From positions 62,001 to 126,000 of the forward strand of contig CAMFIF010000003.1 in the NCBI GenBank assembly GCA_945952415.1: DNA of 64,000 bases, written 5' to 3'. The notes below the pieces were generated by a model that worked only from the letters and a program-made list of their open reading frames with translations, made no database searches and was not told the origin of the DNA. Source of the DNA: an uncultured Rhizobium sp. GTDB lineage: Bacteria > Pseudomonadota > Alphaproteobacteria > Rhizobiales > Rhizobiaceae. A program made the position numbers and the translations under genes. Positions 46,922 to 58,831 of this stretch are shown here, in pieces; positions within the stretch are counted from its first letter, which is position 1, and every line of letters begins with the position of its first letter.

Positions 46922-47161
46922 ATGACCGTGGTGGTCAAGATTGGCGAAGACAAGGCTGGCCTGGCGGACCTTCTTGCAAAAGTCGAGGGCGGCGAGGATG
47001 TGATCATCCAGCGGGGCAGCACGCCGGTGGCGCGAATGACCGGTATTGCGACTCAGCAGGACATTGCCTCCACCATTGCATCGATCAGGGCCGAGCGCGT
47101 CGCCAGAAAATCCACCAACATGTCGGAAATCCTCGAATGGCGGGATGAAGGTCGCCGCTGA
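46922..47161 (+). CDS. Phd/YefM/VapB-like antitoxin
   Basis: KIGEDKAGLADLLAKVEGGEDVIIQRGSTPVARMTGI pattern; paired with PIN toxin. Confidence 0.88.
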   Translation: MTVVVKIGEDKAGLADLLAKVEGGEDVIIQRGSTPVARMTGIATQQDIASTIASIRAERVARKSTNMSEILEWRDEGRR

Positions 47162-47562
47162 TGGCGTTGGTTGTCGACGCCTCCATCGCCGCCATCTGGT
47201 TTCTGCCCGATGAGAAGGATGGTCGCGCCGATAATATCCTTGACCGGCTGAATCACGAGAGTGCCCTCGTCCTTTCCCTCTTCTGGTTCGAAATCCGCAA
47301 TATCCTGATCAAGGCACACAAACGAAGCCGGCTGGACGAAGCCGGCTTGCGCAGAGCCATTATGCATTTGCGAAATCTGCCGCTGGTCGATCAAGGCAGC
47401 GGCAGTGACGGGCTCATTCTCTCGCTCTGCCTGAAAGAAGGCCTTACCGCCTATGACGCCAGCTATCTGGCGTTGGCGATGGAAAAGGACATTCCCATAG
47501 TGACGGCCGATCACGCGCTCGAAGCCGCAGCAGCGAGAAATGGCGTGCAAGTGGTCCGTTAG
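47161..47562 (+). CDS. VapC-like PIN-domain toxin
   Basis: MALVVDASIAAIWFLPDE, YDASYLALAMEKDIPIVTADHAL; acidic PIN residues present. Confidence 0.92.
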   Translation: MALVVDASIAAIWFLPDEKDGRADNILDRLNHESALVLSLFWFEIRNILIKAHKRSRLDEAGLRRAIMHLRNLPLVDQGSGSDGLILSLCLKEGLTAYDASYLALAMEKDIPIVTADHALEAAAARNGVQVVR

Positions 47563-51875: not shown

Positions 51876-51901
51876 AGAAGGGGCTCTTGCGAGCCCCTTC
51901 T
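51876..51901 (-). terminator. Hairpin downstream of the AAA+/DUF operon
   Basis: AGAAGGGGCTC-TTGC-GAGCCCCTTCT perfect 11-bp stem; no strong T-run. Confidence 0.55.
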
Positions 51902-51906
51902 GCCGG

Positions 51907-53025
51907 TCAGCGATCGATAATCGACCGGATCTCAACCAGGTTCGAACGAACCCTCAGAATATAGAAGCCCATGGTCGAAAGATGGTTGGGCATGATCCAG
52001 CCGTCCTCGCGCCCGTTGGAGATGATCGCGGGCTGGACCGCCAGCGCGCCCTGGAACTGCTTCAGGGTTTCAAGCCAGATCGGCTTCAGGTTGCGCTCGT
52101 TCAGCACTTGGTCGAAATCGGCGCGAACCGCGGAAAGGATCGCGTAATAGCCGTAGAGCTGGCCATAGGCAAACCAGAACCGGTCATCCGCCCGCGTGTC
52201 GAACCAGCCATTGGCATGTTGTTCCGCCCGCTCCTTGAGGATGGCGGATGTGCCGCCGAGCGAATTGGCCACCCGGTCCACGAAGATCAGCAGGTTATCG
52301 GCGCGCGTGTCGAAATTGGCAGTGCAGTTCTCGAGTTCGGCATTGAAAGCCTTGAGATCGGCAATCGCCGCCCGGTACTGGCTCGGCGTCGGCGTCAGCG
52401 GGCCGAAGGGCGAAAGGCCGAAATACCAGTTGGTTTCCTCATATTGCAGCTTGCTGCGGGCGCTCTGCAGGTTGTTGTTGATCGCAGACGTGCCGCGCAT
52501 GCGCACCAGCGTATCCACGAGCTCCACCGTGGTGCGCCGGACCGCTTCGTTCACGCCGCGCTGGAAGGAGGCCTTGTTGTCGAGGAAGGGCGTGTGATCC
52601 CAGTCGGTGCCGAAAAAGCCAAGCTTGTACAGCAGCATGGAGGAAATCCAGGCATTCTGGTTCACATTGTCGTCGATGAGCTTGGCGGTCACGTCGACCA
52701 CGGCGGAGCGCTGGCAGGTCTTGGCCGCCCCCGCCGCCGCCGGCTTTTCGAGACCTGCGGAGAGATTGCGCTCGCCGAGCTTGTAGCTGTCGACGAAATT
52801 CGGATCGAAATTCGTCCAGACCTGGGTCTGCACGATGAAATAGCCATAGCCGAGCACGAGGACCAGCAGGAAGCCGGCAACCGGCAGGCGCACCAGCCAG
52901 CTGCGCCCCCTGTACCAGCCATGCGCCGCCATGAAGGGCCAGACGAGCCATGCCACGACAAGCCCGAAACCGTGGCCGATGCCGCGGAACACGCGCTCGA
53001 AAAAGGCGATGATCGGATCAAGCAT
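51907..53025 (-). CDS. DUF2333-like membrane-anchored protein
   Basis: N-terminal TM (LVRLPVAGFLLVLVLGYGYFIVQ) then large soluble domain. Confidence 0.75.
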   Translation of the reverse strand: MLDPIIAFFERVFRGIGHGFGLVVAWLVWPFMAAHGWYRGRSWLVRLPVAGFLLVLVLGYGYFIVQTQVWTNFDPNFVDSYKLGERNLSAGLEKPAAAGAAKTCQRSAVVDVTAKLIDDNVNQNAWISSMLLYKLGFFGTDWDHTPFLDNKASFQRGVNEAVRRTTVELVDTLVRMRGTSAINNNLQSARSKLQYEETNWYFGLSPFGPLTPTPSQYRAAIADLKAFNAELENCTANFDTRADNLLIFVDRVANSLGGTSAILKERAEQHANGWFDTRADDRFWFAYGQLYGYYAILSAVRADFDQVLNERNLKPIWLETLKQFQGALAVQPAIISNGREDGWIMPNHLSTMGFYILRVRSNLVEIRSIIDR

Positions 53026-54316
53026 GGTCGTCCTCTCCCATTGCATAGAGTTTTTCGCGAATGGCTCGCTTGTCCTTCAGATATGAACTTGTCAGCCGCG
53101 ACACAACATGATTGCGGAAATTATCGCTGTATTTCTCATATCTGAGGTAGAAACCCTCCCGGTCGAAAATGAACCGGGAGAGGTAATCCTGGGGCACCTG
53201 CGCGGAAATCAGCCGGTTGGTCAGCCAGGCATCCCGATGCCCCGGCTCGGCGCGCACCAGAAGGAAGCGCGCGGGCGGCGGCACGAGATCGAGCCGCACC
53301 TCGCCCGTATCCCCGAGCTCCCGGAGCTTTTCTGTGAGGAAAGGATAGGTGCCATCGGCCGTCACCGCCGCCGCATTGCGCTGCAGGAAAGTCTGCACGA
53401 AGGCCGGATCGAGCCGGGAAAAGTCCGTATCGGGCGCGATATCGGCAATCAGCGTCTCCACGGCCATGGCACGGCGATGCTCGATCAGACCCGATTGCTG
53501 CACCCAGCTGGCGCGTGGCAATTGCAGCCGCCCGGACCGCGCCAGGAAATCGAAGATCAGCTTGGGATCGTCGGCGGGAATATAGCTCACCTGCCAGGGC
53601 CGCGAGCGGCGGAAACCCGGCGCCTTGGGGTCGCAGATCACGGTGGCAGTCTTGTCGTCGAGGAACACGTAGACACCGCCGAAATGATTGGCCCAGAAGG
53701 CCTCGTGCCGGAAGACGAGCTGGTCCGGCACCAGTGCATTCTGGCGGATGTCGCCGGTGACGCGGGCGAGATCCACCATCCGGTTGAGGGTCTGGTCGTC
53801 ACGCCAGAGATCCGTCTCCGCAACGAGCCGGTCCACGAGGCCACGCAGTTCGGCGGCTTTTCCCAGCACGTCGTCAGCGGATAGCACCCGGAACCGCACC
53901 TCGTTGATCGACAGCAGGTCATCGAGCGTGTCGACGACGGCCACCGAATCCTCGATCTCCCCATAGACCGCATCCTTGATGGTGATGGCATGGAGCGCAC
54001 GGGCATTCGCCTCGAAGAAGGCATGCATCAGCGCCGCCGTGTTCGAAAAGCTCGAATGGGCGAGCGGCAGGCGCTCCTGGTCTGGCGTGAGGATGATGAA
54101 GCGGCGGTTGACCTTCAGCGGGTCGAGATAATCCATGTCGTCAAGGGCCTGCGCCACCTCGGGCGAGAAGCCCACCATGTCGATGCGGAAGCGCTCGAGC
54201 GTGACCGGCGGCAGGCCGAAGCCGCTGAGCGCCTTGTTATAGCGCTCGATGAGATGCGGTTCCTCGATGGTGAGAAGCCGCCCGTAGACCAGTTCCGATT
54301 CCAGCAGTCTCTTCAT
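53018..54316 (-). CDS. Conserved hypothetical (DUF6638-like)
   Basis: Full-length ORF with consistent codon bias; overlaps the next gene start by 8 nt. DUF name from memory, needs a search. Confidence 0.65.
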   Translation of the reverse strand: MKRLLESELVYGRLLTIEEPHLIERYNKALSGFGLPPVTLERFRIDMVGFSPEVAQALDDMDYLDPLKVNRRFIILTPDQERLPLAHSSFSNTAALMHAFFEANARALHAITIKDAVYGEIEDSVAVVDTLDDLLSINEVRFRVLSADDVLGKAAELRGLVDRLVAETDLWRDDQTLNRMVDLARVTGDIRQNALVPDQLVFRHEAFWANHFGGVYVFLDDKTATVICDPKAPGFRRSRPWQVSYIPADDPKLIFDFLARSGRLQLPRASWVQQSGLIEHRRAMAVETLIADIAPDTDFSRLDPAFVQTFLQRNAAAVTADGTYPFLTEKLRELGDTGEVRLDLVPPPARFLLVRAEPGHRDAWLTNRLISAQVPQDYLSRFIFDREGFYLRYEKYSDNFRNHVVSRLTSSYLKDKRAIREKLYAMGEDDHA

Positions 54317-54361
54317 GCCGGGCACCCCATGGGCCGTTGGAAAGAAGCGATGGGGCGCATG

Positions 54362-56290
54362 TCAGTCCTCCCAGCGCCCGTCGCGTTTCAGGCCCTCGAT
54401 TTCCCGCACGGCCCTTTCGCGCTGCCTTTCGCGGCGGACGATCTCCGCCACCGCAGCGGCATCCGCCTTGTCCGCATAGCGAAATTCGCTATCGGCATAG
54501 CGATTGATTTCCTGCAGCACCATGTCGATGGTCACGGGGCCGCGCAACGCCGAAATCATCGCCACCTTTTCCTCATAGGGCTTGTGCAGGAAGGCACCGG
54601 GCGTGGCAAACCACTCGTCCGGCAGGTCCACATCCATCGCCCGCATCTTCACCGCATCGGCAATGTTCTTGATCGCACGTCCCGTGAAGCGCGGCTCCGC
54701 CTCGCGAATGCGGTAGAGATAGGTGCCGATATCGGCAAGCGTGCGTATGCCGCCGGTCTCCTTCTCGAAACGCTCCCAGATGGAAAGCAGCGCTTCCTCC
54801 GACGGGCGGGAGAACCGATCATAGGCCTCGGCAACCGGCTTGCGGATCCCCTGGCCTTCGAGCGCCACGTGATCGCCGGGCGGGATCGCCGTGTTCTTGC
54901 CCACCAGCATGCGGAAGATGTCGATGTAATCGTCGCGGGTCTGCGGCCCGTCCACCAGCCAGCGCGCGCCCGCCCGCTGGCGCAGCGCATCGTCCACATT
55001 CTCGGGATAGTTCGAGAACATGCCGAAGGTGGCATTGCCCCGGACGACCGTGGAGGCGCCCGCAAAGCTTTCCATCAGCACGGCGGTCACTTCCTGCTGC
55101 CCGGCCGAGGCCCGGTCGTCGTTGCGGCGCGCCGCGACCTGGTCGATATCGTCGATCGTGCCGAAGCCGATGACGTCGGGATTCATCACCGAACGGACGA
55201 ATTCCTTGCAGTTCTGCCCCGATTTGCCCTGATAGGAGGAAATCTGGTCGACGCCGAAATTCTCGTAATGGAAGGGATAGCCGGCCATCTGGCAGTAATC
55301 ATGGATCATGCCGGCCATCATCTGGATCAGCATGGTCTTGCCGGTACCCGGCATGCCATCGCCGATGAAGGTGAACAGAAAGCCGCCCACCTCCACGAAG
55401 GGGTTCATGCGCCGCTCGAAATCATAGGCAACCAGCATGCGGGCCAGCCGCATGGCCTGATGCTTTGCAACATGGTTGCCGACGATCTCTTCCGGCTTGC
55501 GGAAGGTCATGACCAGCGGCCGGCTGCGCTCCACCGGCGGGCGGTCGAAACCGTCGAGCACGAAATCCTCGGTCTCGAGCTTCAGATGAGCGTTCATGAA
55601 GGCAGCCAGGCCCGTGAACCGCCCCTTGCGTTCGATGAGGCCCTCGAGCACCACGCCGGCATAGCGTCTGGCAGCCGCCAGCATCGCCGCATCGTCGGCA
55701 GCGGAACCCACCGCCCGGTCGAGGCCAGCGACGAGCGCCTTCAGCGCATCCTGCGGCGTATCGAAGAGATAGTCCGGCCCCGCCATGTCGCCCGCGGCCT
55801 CCCCCTCCCCCGGGAGCATGCGCGAGAGATAGGCGGCAAAGGCAAAGGCGGCGATATAGGCAGAACCCGACAACAGGGCGCGAAACCGCTCCGCATCGGC
55901 GCCGGCCAGGGCCGCCTGCGCATTGCGGGATTGCAGCACTTCCAGCTCGGTCTGCCGGGCAAAGATCTGGGAGACGGCGAGCGCAACCTCCGCCCCCCGC
56001 CGGGTGCGATAGACCAGCATATGGGCTTCGGGCGAAAGAAGCGGATCATCCGGCCGGCGCGCGGCGACCGTTCGGATAAATTCCACCTCCCGGGTCCGGG
56101 AAAGCCCCGCCGTCGAAACCGTCGGCACGAAGCGGCGGCCGGTTCCGGCAATCGCGCCGGTCTGCGGCCCCTCGGTCGGCCCGACGAGAGCAAAACGCGT
56201 CACGAGCGCCTGCGCCACGGGCCTTTGCTTCAGGAGATCGGCCTCGGCGATCAGCGTCAGCCCGGCATCCTGTCCGGTGGGAGAAACCAT
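54362..56290 (-). CDS. AAA+ ATPase of uncharacterised operon
   Basis: Walker A GDGMPGTGKTMLIQ, Walker B-like VIGFGTIDDIDQVAARR, sensor-1-like FGMFSNYPENVDDALRQRAGARW. Confidence 0.9.
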   Translation of the reverse strand: MVSPTGQDAGLTLIAEADLLKQRPVAQALVTRFALVGPTEGPQTGAIAGTGRRFVPTVSTAGLSRTREVEFIRTVAARRPDDPLLSPEAHMLVYRTRRGAEVALAVSQIFARQTELEVLQSRNAQAALAGADAERFRALLSGSAYIAAFAFAAYLSRMLPGEGEAAGDMAGPDYLFDTPQDALKALVAGLDRAVGSAADDAAMLAAARRYAGVVLEGLIERKGRFTGLAAFMNAHLKLETEDFVLDGFDRPPVERSRPLVMTFRKPEEIVGNHVAKHQAMRLARMLVAYDFERRMNPFVEVGGFLFTFIGDGMPGTGKTMLIQMMAGMIHDYCQMAGYPFHYENFGVDQISSYQGKSGQNCKEFVRSVMNPDVIGFGTIDDIDQVAARRNDDRASAGQQEVTAVLMESFAGASTVVRGNATFGMFSNYPENVDDALRQRAGARWLVDGPQTRDDYIDIFRMLVGKNTAIPPGDHVALEGQGIRKPVAEAYDRFSRPSEEALLSIWERFEKETGGIRTLADIGTYLYRIREAEPRFTGRAIKNIADAVKMRAMDVDLPDEWFATPGAFLHKPYEEKVAMISALRGPVTIDMVLQEINRYADSEFRYADKADAAAVAEIVRRERQRERAVREIEGLKRDGRWED

Positions 56291-56293
56291 GGA

Positions 56294-57445
56294 TCAAACC
56301 TCGCTGATGACGTTGTCGCCGGAAATGACGTGCACCTTGAACCCGTCGAAGATCGTCTCCGCCTCGCCCGAGGCATAGAGCGCCTGATAGGCATCATGCG
56401 GCACGAGCGCGTGCTTGGCATAGGCGCTCACCCCCATGCGAGCCGCTTCGAGATCGCCCGTATCGATATGGAATTCCTGCATGGCCGGCGTCGAGGAGAA
56501 GAAGCCGCGGCTTTCGGGAATCTCCCGCACCGAGAGAATGTCCTGCACCGTCCAGGTCATCAGCCAGGCATTTTCCGAGCGGCGGACGCGGGAAAGGATC
56601 TCGTTGATCTTCGAATTGTTCTCGGTAATCCCGCTCGCATAGAAGGGACCGAGCACATAGCGCGTCAGCCGCTTGGGATGAAGCGAGGGGAAATCCCGGT
56701 CCATCGCCGCCGCAATGGTGGCGGGGGTCAGCGAATAGGCGCTGTTTGCCGTCACGAAGCGGTCGAAGGCCACCGCAAGCTCCGGATTGAGAAGTCCGCC
56801 CACGGGCAGCGGGATCTTGACCTCGGGATTGAGACGGCCCTCCCCGGTCACCAAGAGGCGCGCCACATTCTCGGAGGAATCCTCCACCCGCACCGCATAG
56901 ACCATGGGCAGCGTCGCCGTGCCGTCATAAGCGCCCCAACTCGCGAAATAGACCGGGCGGCGATTGTCCGGATTGACCGTCACATGCAGCGTTTCCGGCA
57001 GGGTGACGGGCTGGAAGAACTGTCCGCCGGACAGGCGCTCCAGATAGTGGCGCTCCGCCAGCCGCGATTGCAGCGCCTGCGGAAAGGCCCGCCGGGTGAG
57101 GATGAAATCCGCCATCTCCCGCTTCAGAGCCGGCGCATCGGGAATGGTGGAAAGCCGGTCCTTTGCCTGTGCCCGGTCGTTTTCCAGCTCCAGAACGGAC
57201 TGGAAAACCGGAAAGCCGCTTTCCGCCCGCGAGATCCGGAACTGGTCCATGAAACCGATGCGGCTTTCCCAGGCCGCAAAGGAGGTTTTCAGCCGGCCGA
57301 TATAGGGCAGGACCACGCTTGCGGCAAAATCCTCGCCGGAGAGCGCCTGCCCGCCGGCTTCGGGTTTCGCCAGCGTTTCGAGCCCGCGAAGGGCCGCCGC
57401 CATGCGCTGGAAATAGTCGGAGACGGCCTGTGTGGGTGTCAACAT
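56294..57445 (-). CDS. Conserved hypothetical protein of uncharacterised operon
   Basis: 383 aa ORF 3 nt from the AAA+ start; no family recognised. Confidence 0.6.
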   Translation of the reverse strand: MLTPTQAVSDYFQRMAAALRGLETLAKPEAGGQALSGEDFAASVVLPYIGRLKTSFAAWESRIGFMDQFRISRAESGFPVFQSVLELENDRAQAKDRLSTIPDAPALKREMADFILTRRAFPQALQSRLAERHYLERLSGGQFFQPVTLPETLHVTVNPDNRRPVYFASWGAYDGTATLPMVYAVRVEDSSENVARLLVTGEGRLNPEVKIPLPVGGLLNPELAVAFDRFVTANSAYSLTPATIAAAMDRDFPSLHPKRLTRYVLGPFYASGITENNSKINEILSRVRRSENAWLMTWTVQDILSVREIPESRGFFSSTPAMQEFHIDTGDLEAARMGVSAYAKHALVPHDAYQALYASGEAETIFDGFKVHVISGDNVISEV

Positions 57446-57490
57446 GGCGCAATCGGACCCCGCTGGGACAGTGAAGCCAGGGGAAGGCCC

Positions 57491-58579
57491 TTAGGATTTC
57501 ACGTAATTGGCGGCATTGTGCTTGTCCATCACCGACTGGAAGCGGCGGGCAAAGGCCTCGTCCGCCAGCTTCTTGCGGCGCTGGATATCCTGGGTGGCCA
57601 GCATGTTCTTCTCGTGCAGCTCCAGGAGGTCACCGATATGGCGCTGGGCCGCCGAGCCGATGCCGGCCATGGTTTCTTCCGCCGCCGTGTCCACCTGGCT
57701 GCCGAGCGTGTTGATCTTGTGTGCCACGTCCTGCTGTGCCGCCGTCTTCAGCGAATCCTCGAGTGCCTTGTAAAGCACGATGCGCTGCTCGGTATCGATG
57801 GTGAGCTTGTTGATCAGCGTGTTCTGCGCGGCGATCTGGTTGTTGAGCGAATCGACGAAGGTCTGGAACATCGAGGTGTAGCGTTCCAGCGTCTGGCTTT
57901 CGGCCAGAAGCTCCTGCTCGCGCGCCTGGGCCTGGTTGTAATCCGTGGCAAGGCGCGAGCGCTCGCCCTCAAGCTCGGTGCGCTGGTTCTGGTCGGTGGA
58001 CGCCGCGATGCGGTTTTCGATGTCGAGGAGCGCCGGGTTGAGGCTCTCGATCTTCTTCTGCACCTCGCCAAGGGCAGCCACCGCCTGCTTGCGCCGCTCG
58101 ATCACGTTGATCAGGCTGGCCTCGGACGACTTGTAGCGCTGGTCGAGCACCGCGCGCTGCTCCTTGAGGATGCCGACGATCATGTCGGATTTCGACAGAA
58201 GTTCCTGCAGATTACCGGCGAGAGACATGTTGCGCACCCGGTCGGTGCGCAGCCGCTGCATCTTCTGCTTGGAGAAGAGGCCGATGAACTTTTCCATGCC
58301 GGTATAGTTCTTCATGCTCTCGAATTCGGAGCCGAAGACATTGGTGGCATCTTCCAGGCCGATGATGAGATCGGCAATATTGCCCTCCATCACCTTCTGC
58401 TGGTTGATGACGTCCTGAATGCGGGCATTTTCGATATCGAAGGCCGCATCGCCCAGCTTCGTATCAGCCTTGGCAAACTGGTCGAGAACCTGCCCCGATT
58501 TTTCGATCTTGCCTCTCATCTCCTGCACCAGGGACTTGGTGCTCTCGATCTGCTGGTCGAAGGATTGCAGGCTGGCCAT
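57491..58579 (-). CDS. Soluble coiled-coil protein (possibly TelA-like)
   Basis: Start MASLQSFDQQIESTKS; heptad-rich helices throughout; no TM or signal peptide. TelA resemblance is weak. Confidence 0.65.
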   Translation of the reverse strand: MASLQSFDQQIESTKSLVQEMRGKIEKSGQVLDQFAKADTKLGDAAFDIENARIQDVINQQKVMEGNIADLIIGLEDATNVFGSEFESMKNYTGMEKFIGLFSKQKMQRLRTDRVRNMSLAGNLQELLSKSDMIVGILKEQRAVLDQRYKSSEASLINVIERRKQAVAALGEVQKKIESLNPALLDIENRIAASTDQNQRTELEGERSRLATDYNQAQAREQELLAESQTLERYTSMFQTFVDSLNNQIAAQNTLINKLTIDTEQRIVLYKALEDSLKTAAQQDVAHKINTLGSQVDTAAEETMAGIGSAAQRHIGDLLELHEKNMLATQDIQRRKKLADEAFARRFQSVMDKHNAANYVKS

Positions 58580-58831
58580 GAATTCAGGACTCCCCGTCGT
58601 TTGTCTGTTCCGGAAACTAGCGCCGGCAGCCTTCCCTCCGCAACCCTGAAGGCGAAGGAAAGCTGTGGCGCAACCCGGATTCTCACGATGCGCCCGAAAA
58701 CCGTGCGCTAAGCAATGTGGTGTGCCGGAAACCGAGTGCAAGAGCCGGGTGCGACAATCTGGCAGGCGAGAGGGAGTACGGCGCCGTGAGCAGCGCGGCG
58801 CCGTTGGTCGTGACGAGGCCTGCGGCGCGCC

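Follow-up and report, generated by a model that had tools for sequence, protein, structure and literature searches.

We analyzed an operon of five genes within a 64,000-nt stretch of DNA (the window) from an uncultured Rhizobium sp. ORF calls on the window place all five on the minus strand between positions 51876 and 58579, tightly spaced and in the order A-B-C-D-E, as a sequence-only reading of the same DNA had described. Gene A (57491-58579) encodes a 362-aa, all-helical coiled-coil protein and gene B (56294-57445) a 383-aa protein; a Pfam scan assigned neither to a family. Gene C (54362-56290) encodes a 642-aa AAA+ ATPase in which an N-terminal region of ~270 aa without a known family precedes an AAA module at residues ~290-450 (PF00004; E = 3e-11, 44.3 bits vs. 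a curated cut-off of 21.2). Gene D (53018-54325) encodes a DUF6638 protein, 435 aa long if translation starts at a GTG and 432 aa if it starts at an ATG (54316); its full-length match to PF20343 (E = 8.5e-61) spans positions 2-412 of the 439-position model. Gene E (51907-53025) encodes a DUF2333 protein (PF10095; E = 4.7e-23, 82.1 bits vs. a cut-off of 22) of 372 aa from an ATG that overlaps D. The intergenic gaps are 45 nt between A and B, 3 nt between B and C, and 36 or 45 nt between C and D for the GTG or ATG start, respectively, while D and E overlap by 8 nt. The operon ends at a perfect 11-bp inverted repeat with a 4-nt GCAA loop (51876-51901, minus strand), again as first read; since a T run does not follow it, the hairpin departs from a textbook intrinsic terminator. 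A 1573-codon open frame (53990-58711, plus strand) covers most of the operon in antisense, probably as a side effect of GC-rich codon use.

Features of the five proteins

Gene C carries most of the sequence hallmarks of a classic AAA+ ATPase. Its Walker A motif (GDGMPGTGKT, 55334-55363, minus strand) is present in 141/141 C proteins, and a pore-loop-1-like motif (SYQGKSGQ, 55214-55237, minus strand) with its aromatic residue Y353 in 140/141. The Y353-Q-G of the pore loop, the sensor-1 residue N427, and the arginines R437, R439, and R443 of the second region of homology are invariant, Vibrio included. The exception is Walker B (GTIDDID, 55142-55162, minus strand), where Asp occupies the position of the catalytic Glu. 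The GTIDDIDQ spelling had been pointed out before and was borne out here: all 141 C proteins and the Vibrio protein read DD rather than DE, departing from the canonical hhhhDE pattern, so ATP hydrolysis by C may be slow or absent. The best sequence matches of C, all of low similarity, were an i-AAA protein (5ubv, 4.1e-6), AFG2, and CDC48. Like the classic AAA ATPases (Cdc48/AFG2, FtsH/i-AAA, PAN, and Vps4), C has a Walker A motif, an aromatic pore loop, a sensor-1 Asn, and an arginine region; unlike them, it has a DD Walker B, its own N-terminal region, and an operon of its own that it shares with A, B, and D. C belongs among the classic-type AAA+ ATPases, with a pore loop of the threading kind and a non-canonical Walker B.

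Comparison of the coiled-coil protein A with PspA/Vipp1/ESCRT-III and with TelA had been suggested, and profile comparison supported neither analogy. A resembles PspA/Vipp1, the bacterial ESCRT-III proteins (PMC8281802), in being an all-helical coiled-coil protein, but it lacks a profile relation to them (hhalign probability of 9% against PspA, PF04012) and is longer, at 362 aa vs. about 220-260 aa. TelA (PF05816) is a long helical protein of similar length, but its hhalign probability with A was 0.2%, no profile match was found, and the window's genome held no TelA match. The model of A is helical and of low confidence (pLDDT 67.6), and Foldseek found no PDB match to it at E ≤ 0.001. A ClyA-type pore toxin gave the best Foldseek score (E = 5.6e-3, TM 0.44), and we rejected this match as a likeness of shape because the model is low-confidence and helical.

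Sequence searches against solved structures gave no convincing relative for A, B, D, or E, and a relation of B to D was ruled out by a profile comparison probability of 0.7%. The AlphaFold model of D is confident (pLDDT 89.9, pTM 0.85) and matched nothing in the two structure libraries searched, where the best PDB match had E = 0.95 and the best viral-structure match E = 2.0. Gene E encodes the sole TM segment among the five proteins (about residues 40-71; 52813-52908, minus strand), confirming that a protein with a single N-terminal TM closes the operon. The domain beyond this segment probably lies in the periplasm. Most of E lies beyond the TM, and its two cysteines are conserved, with exactly two present in 115/129 E proteins; for these reasons E is more than an anchor. 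D and E belong to DUF6638 and DUF2333, and DUF1523 is the family that follows D in outgroup alphaproteobacteria (below). A literature search found no published function for any of the three: DUF6638 did not come up, and the mentions of DUF2333 (one) and DUF1523 (four) were incidental.

Conservation and membership of the core

A relative of C is present in 142 of the 248 genomes of the window's family, and 145 related loci were collected for a comparison of gene order. The order is A-B-C-D-E in 130 of the 145 and A-B-C-D in 8, and the other 7 hold a partial gene set, some of them at contig ends. The sequence-only reading had called for a survey of whether the genes co-occur in other genomes; they do, in an invariant order across those 130 loci. 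Within a single fixed draw of 348 genomes from the phylum, the 29 genomes that carry B are exactly those that carry D, and A occurs in the same 29 and as a degenerate copy in 5 more. Vibrio parahaemolyticus keeps A-B-C-D in the same order, at identities of 37, 26, 38, and 24%, respectively. A is the most conserved member, with 75-93% identity in most Rhizobiaceae-type loci. The genes are therefore a real evolutionary unit, with A, B, C, and D inherited together in fixed order.

The A-D core is present in single copy at a syntenic chromosomal place. In Sinorhizobium meliloti the block is flanked by thymidine kinase/choline-transport genes and by formate-tetrahydrofolate ligase, and the window's neighbours, read by eye from ORFs, are the same; the locus thus looks vertically inherited and chromosomal. 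Near the ligase gene of the window, an ORF on the plus strand (47161-47562) reads by eye as a PIN-domain (VapC-type) toxin. A phage origin was rejected, as a tblastn search of 50,697 phage records with C came back empty and no useful PHROG was found. Plasmid-borne mobility was likewise rejected, since only ten large replicons were involved and all were predicted to be non-mobilizable.

E does not belong to this core. The ORF after D looks like DUF1523 in the 5 loci inspected among 6 from outgroup alphaproteobacteria (2 confirmed by Pfam), and its probable periplasmic domain is framed by two TMs, one on either side. Because DUF1523 replaces DUF2333 in these outgroups, the Vibrio locus is without DUF2333, and DUF2333 occurs in many genomes without A-D, the core is A-B-C-D. 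DUF2333 is not part of it, and the membrane gene beside it varies between DUF2333 and DUF1523. The earlier view of E as a membrane anchor holds in so far as E is a membrane partner with one TM; it falls short in that E is outside the core and is more than an anchor. The DUF2333 gene of some gammaproteobacterial loci (L215, L220/L290, L291, and L305) has a PspA gene (PF04012-type) 0.7-2 kb away, and at L273 a PspA-like ORF lies ~1.4 kb downstream of D.

At the same chromosomal site (L255-L259), five genomes from two Rhizobiaceae genera are missing all three of B, C, and D and keep a degenerate A (A*) adjoining an intact DUF2333 gene. Residues 275-300 of A (the SLKTAAQQDVAHKINTLG region; 57680-57757, minus strand) are conserved where B, C, and D are present and largely deleted where they are not: identity over this segment is 54-96% in the ABCD loci compared, Vibrio included, and 0-15% in the A*-E loci, with 17-20 of the 26 residues missing in the four of five A* that were aligned, a loss known from these two genera only. 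The simplest reading is that the segment would serve B, C, or D. Together, the co-loss and the segment deletion point to A as a partner or substrate of B/C/D. A* is, overall, 26-31% identical to the window's A, compared with 38% for Vibrio A in the same alignment. Because A* has diverged throughout, relaxed selection after the loss of B, C, and D stays an alternative to the loss of a binding site.

Exchangeable genes between C and D

The C-D junction (54317-54361; no strand assigned) is empty in the window and serves as a cargo slot in its relatives, more than half of which carry toxin-antitoxin (TA), HEPN/Abi-like (including AbiJ), or DUF559 genes there. Among 142 loci, a junction longer than 300 nt separates C from D in 80, B from C in 15, A from B in 9, and D from E in none; 60 loci have no C-D cargo. 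TA pairs of at least four type II families occupy 49-50 of the 142 C-D slots. By ORF clustering, with representatives of the cargo families named by Pfam, PIN with Phd occurs in 20 loci, ParE-like with RHH in 12, ParE-like with HTH in 12, HicAB in 6 (1 shared with PIN-Phd), and DUF559 in 24 (3 shared with PIN-Phd); examples are L041, L045, L046, L070, L106, and L159 (TA families or DUF559). Models of the slot families matched 49 C-D slots vs. one site in 744 kb of flanks of the same loci, a comparison that retains some bias from models built on the slot families themselves. None of the slot TA families was found at the other junctions of the operon. A FastTree phylogeny of C covering 139 loci shows 51 changes of cargo state, and the second gene of the TA pair usually stops no more than 30 nt from the start of D. 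Different TA pairs have been acquired repeatedly at one fixed spot inside the A-D block. The cargo belongs to known type II TA families (ParE with RHH, ParE/RelE with HTH, PIN with Phd, and HicAB), but, unlike other such modules, it is nested at one set position within a conserved operon of non-TA genes.

In the second alphaproteobacterial family that has many members, the slot holds AbiJ_NTD4, HEPN-like proteins of ~240 aa (weak assignments, below the Pfam cut-off), small membrane proteins, or nothing. Some loci carry unrelated cargo, which by eye includes phospholipase-D-like, pilus-like, and membrane proteins, as well as an IS element. In S. meliloti Ak57 (L224:12679-13842), ISRm16 occupies the slot and adjoins a DUF559-like endonuclease gene. 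Elsewhere in the operon, eight loci (L148 and L159 among them) carry a Fic-domain protein, identified by Pfam, at the B-C junction, and L091 and one other locus carry at the A-B junction a protein that looks SPFH/prohibitin-like by eye.

A candidate remodelling machine and its alternatives

The reading we put forward, with slightly less than an even chance of being right, is that these genes make up a so far undescribed AAA+ machine for protein remodelling, in which C would act on A, with B and D as adaptors and E reaching to the envelope. C would form a ring that grips A, to which it would be recruited through the 275-300 segment by way of B and D, and it would pull apart or reshape assemblies of A; E would couple this cytosolic complex to the envelope. 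The slot genes may act as addiction or back-up modules, making it costly to lose the operon, or the core may act beside growth-arrest effectors. Alongside the observed co-inheritance, gene order, and co-loss, the remodelling of A by C, the adaptor roles of B and D, and the envelope link through E are what we infer. Given its retention from rhizobia to Vibrio and the repeated uptake of TA genes into its slot, the A-B-C-D block looks like a real cellular machine. Of the membrane-associated AAA+ remodelling machine first suggested, the co-inherited operon was supported, as were its AAA+ motor, the coiled-coil protein that co-evolution links to this motor, and the membrane partner; the analogy to ESCRT-III/PspA and TelA was not. 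The block was also proposed as a candidate for an undescribed system, in agreement with our literature search, which found no paper describing it.

That a coiled-coil protein and a classic AAA ATPase share one operon, and that the pore-loop context of C looks Vps4/Cdc48-like by eye, might suggest that the pair of A and C is homologous, if divergent, to that of ESCRT-III (PspA/Vipp1) and Vps4. We regard this as highly improbable, given the poor profile comparison of A with PspA, top Foldseek matches that were ClyA-type toxins and other long helices, none of them significant, and a Pfam scan of C that did not find MIT, the N-terminal domain of Vps4. C could instead be a nucleotide-binding scaffold or an ATP-gated switch rather than a motor, with the DD of Walker B stopping or slowing hydrolysis. 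The presence of DD in every C protein and in Vibrio fits this idea; however, the pore loop and arginine region, which are important for a working ring, are as well conserved as Walker A, and we consider a scaffold unlikely.

The cargo slot invites two further explanations. The long C-D junction may simply tolerate insertions, and TA genes, being frequent travellers, would then be uninformative on the machine. Slots with unrelated cargo agree with such neutrality, but the near absence of the slot TA families from the flanks, their absence from the other junctions, and the close fit of most TA genes (≤30 nt) to D do not; we find it doubtful, if the most credible of these alternatives. Alternatively, the A-D core might itself be a defence or stress-arrest system that senses phage or envelope damage, with the slot gene (TA, AbiJ, HEPN-like, Fic, or DUF559) as its exchangeable effector. 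Cargo mostly of toxin- or defence-like families of unrelated origins, at one slot in two distant families, speaks for this view, as do weak matches of C to the TRIP13 and IetA defence AAA models. Those AAA matches were all that a search of the core genes against the PADLOC 2023 anti-phage models returned, with no system matched. Defence systems are usually patchy and mobile, whereas this core is vertically inherited, syntenic, in single copy, and without phage relatives, and 60 of 142 loci carry no cargo; a defence role for the core is improbable in our judgment. Less probable still is an elaboration of the remodelling machine, in which an AAA+ motor, unusual in its Walker B, would remodel a coiled-coil polymer by means of two adaptors, one with a fold that lacks a PDB match, and a swappable membrane partner, and would have a dedicated socket for exchangeable TA/Abi effectors controlled by its activity.

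S. meliloti, further alphaproteobacteria, and Vibrio share a conserved four-gene core for which we found neither an assigned function nor a paper, and the A-D block is open to direct work in laboratory rhizobia. Genomes without B, C, and D mark a probable contact site on A, and the fixed TA slot offers a testable case for asking how, and for what reason, chromosomal operons come to host addiction modules.
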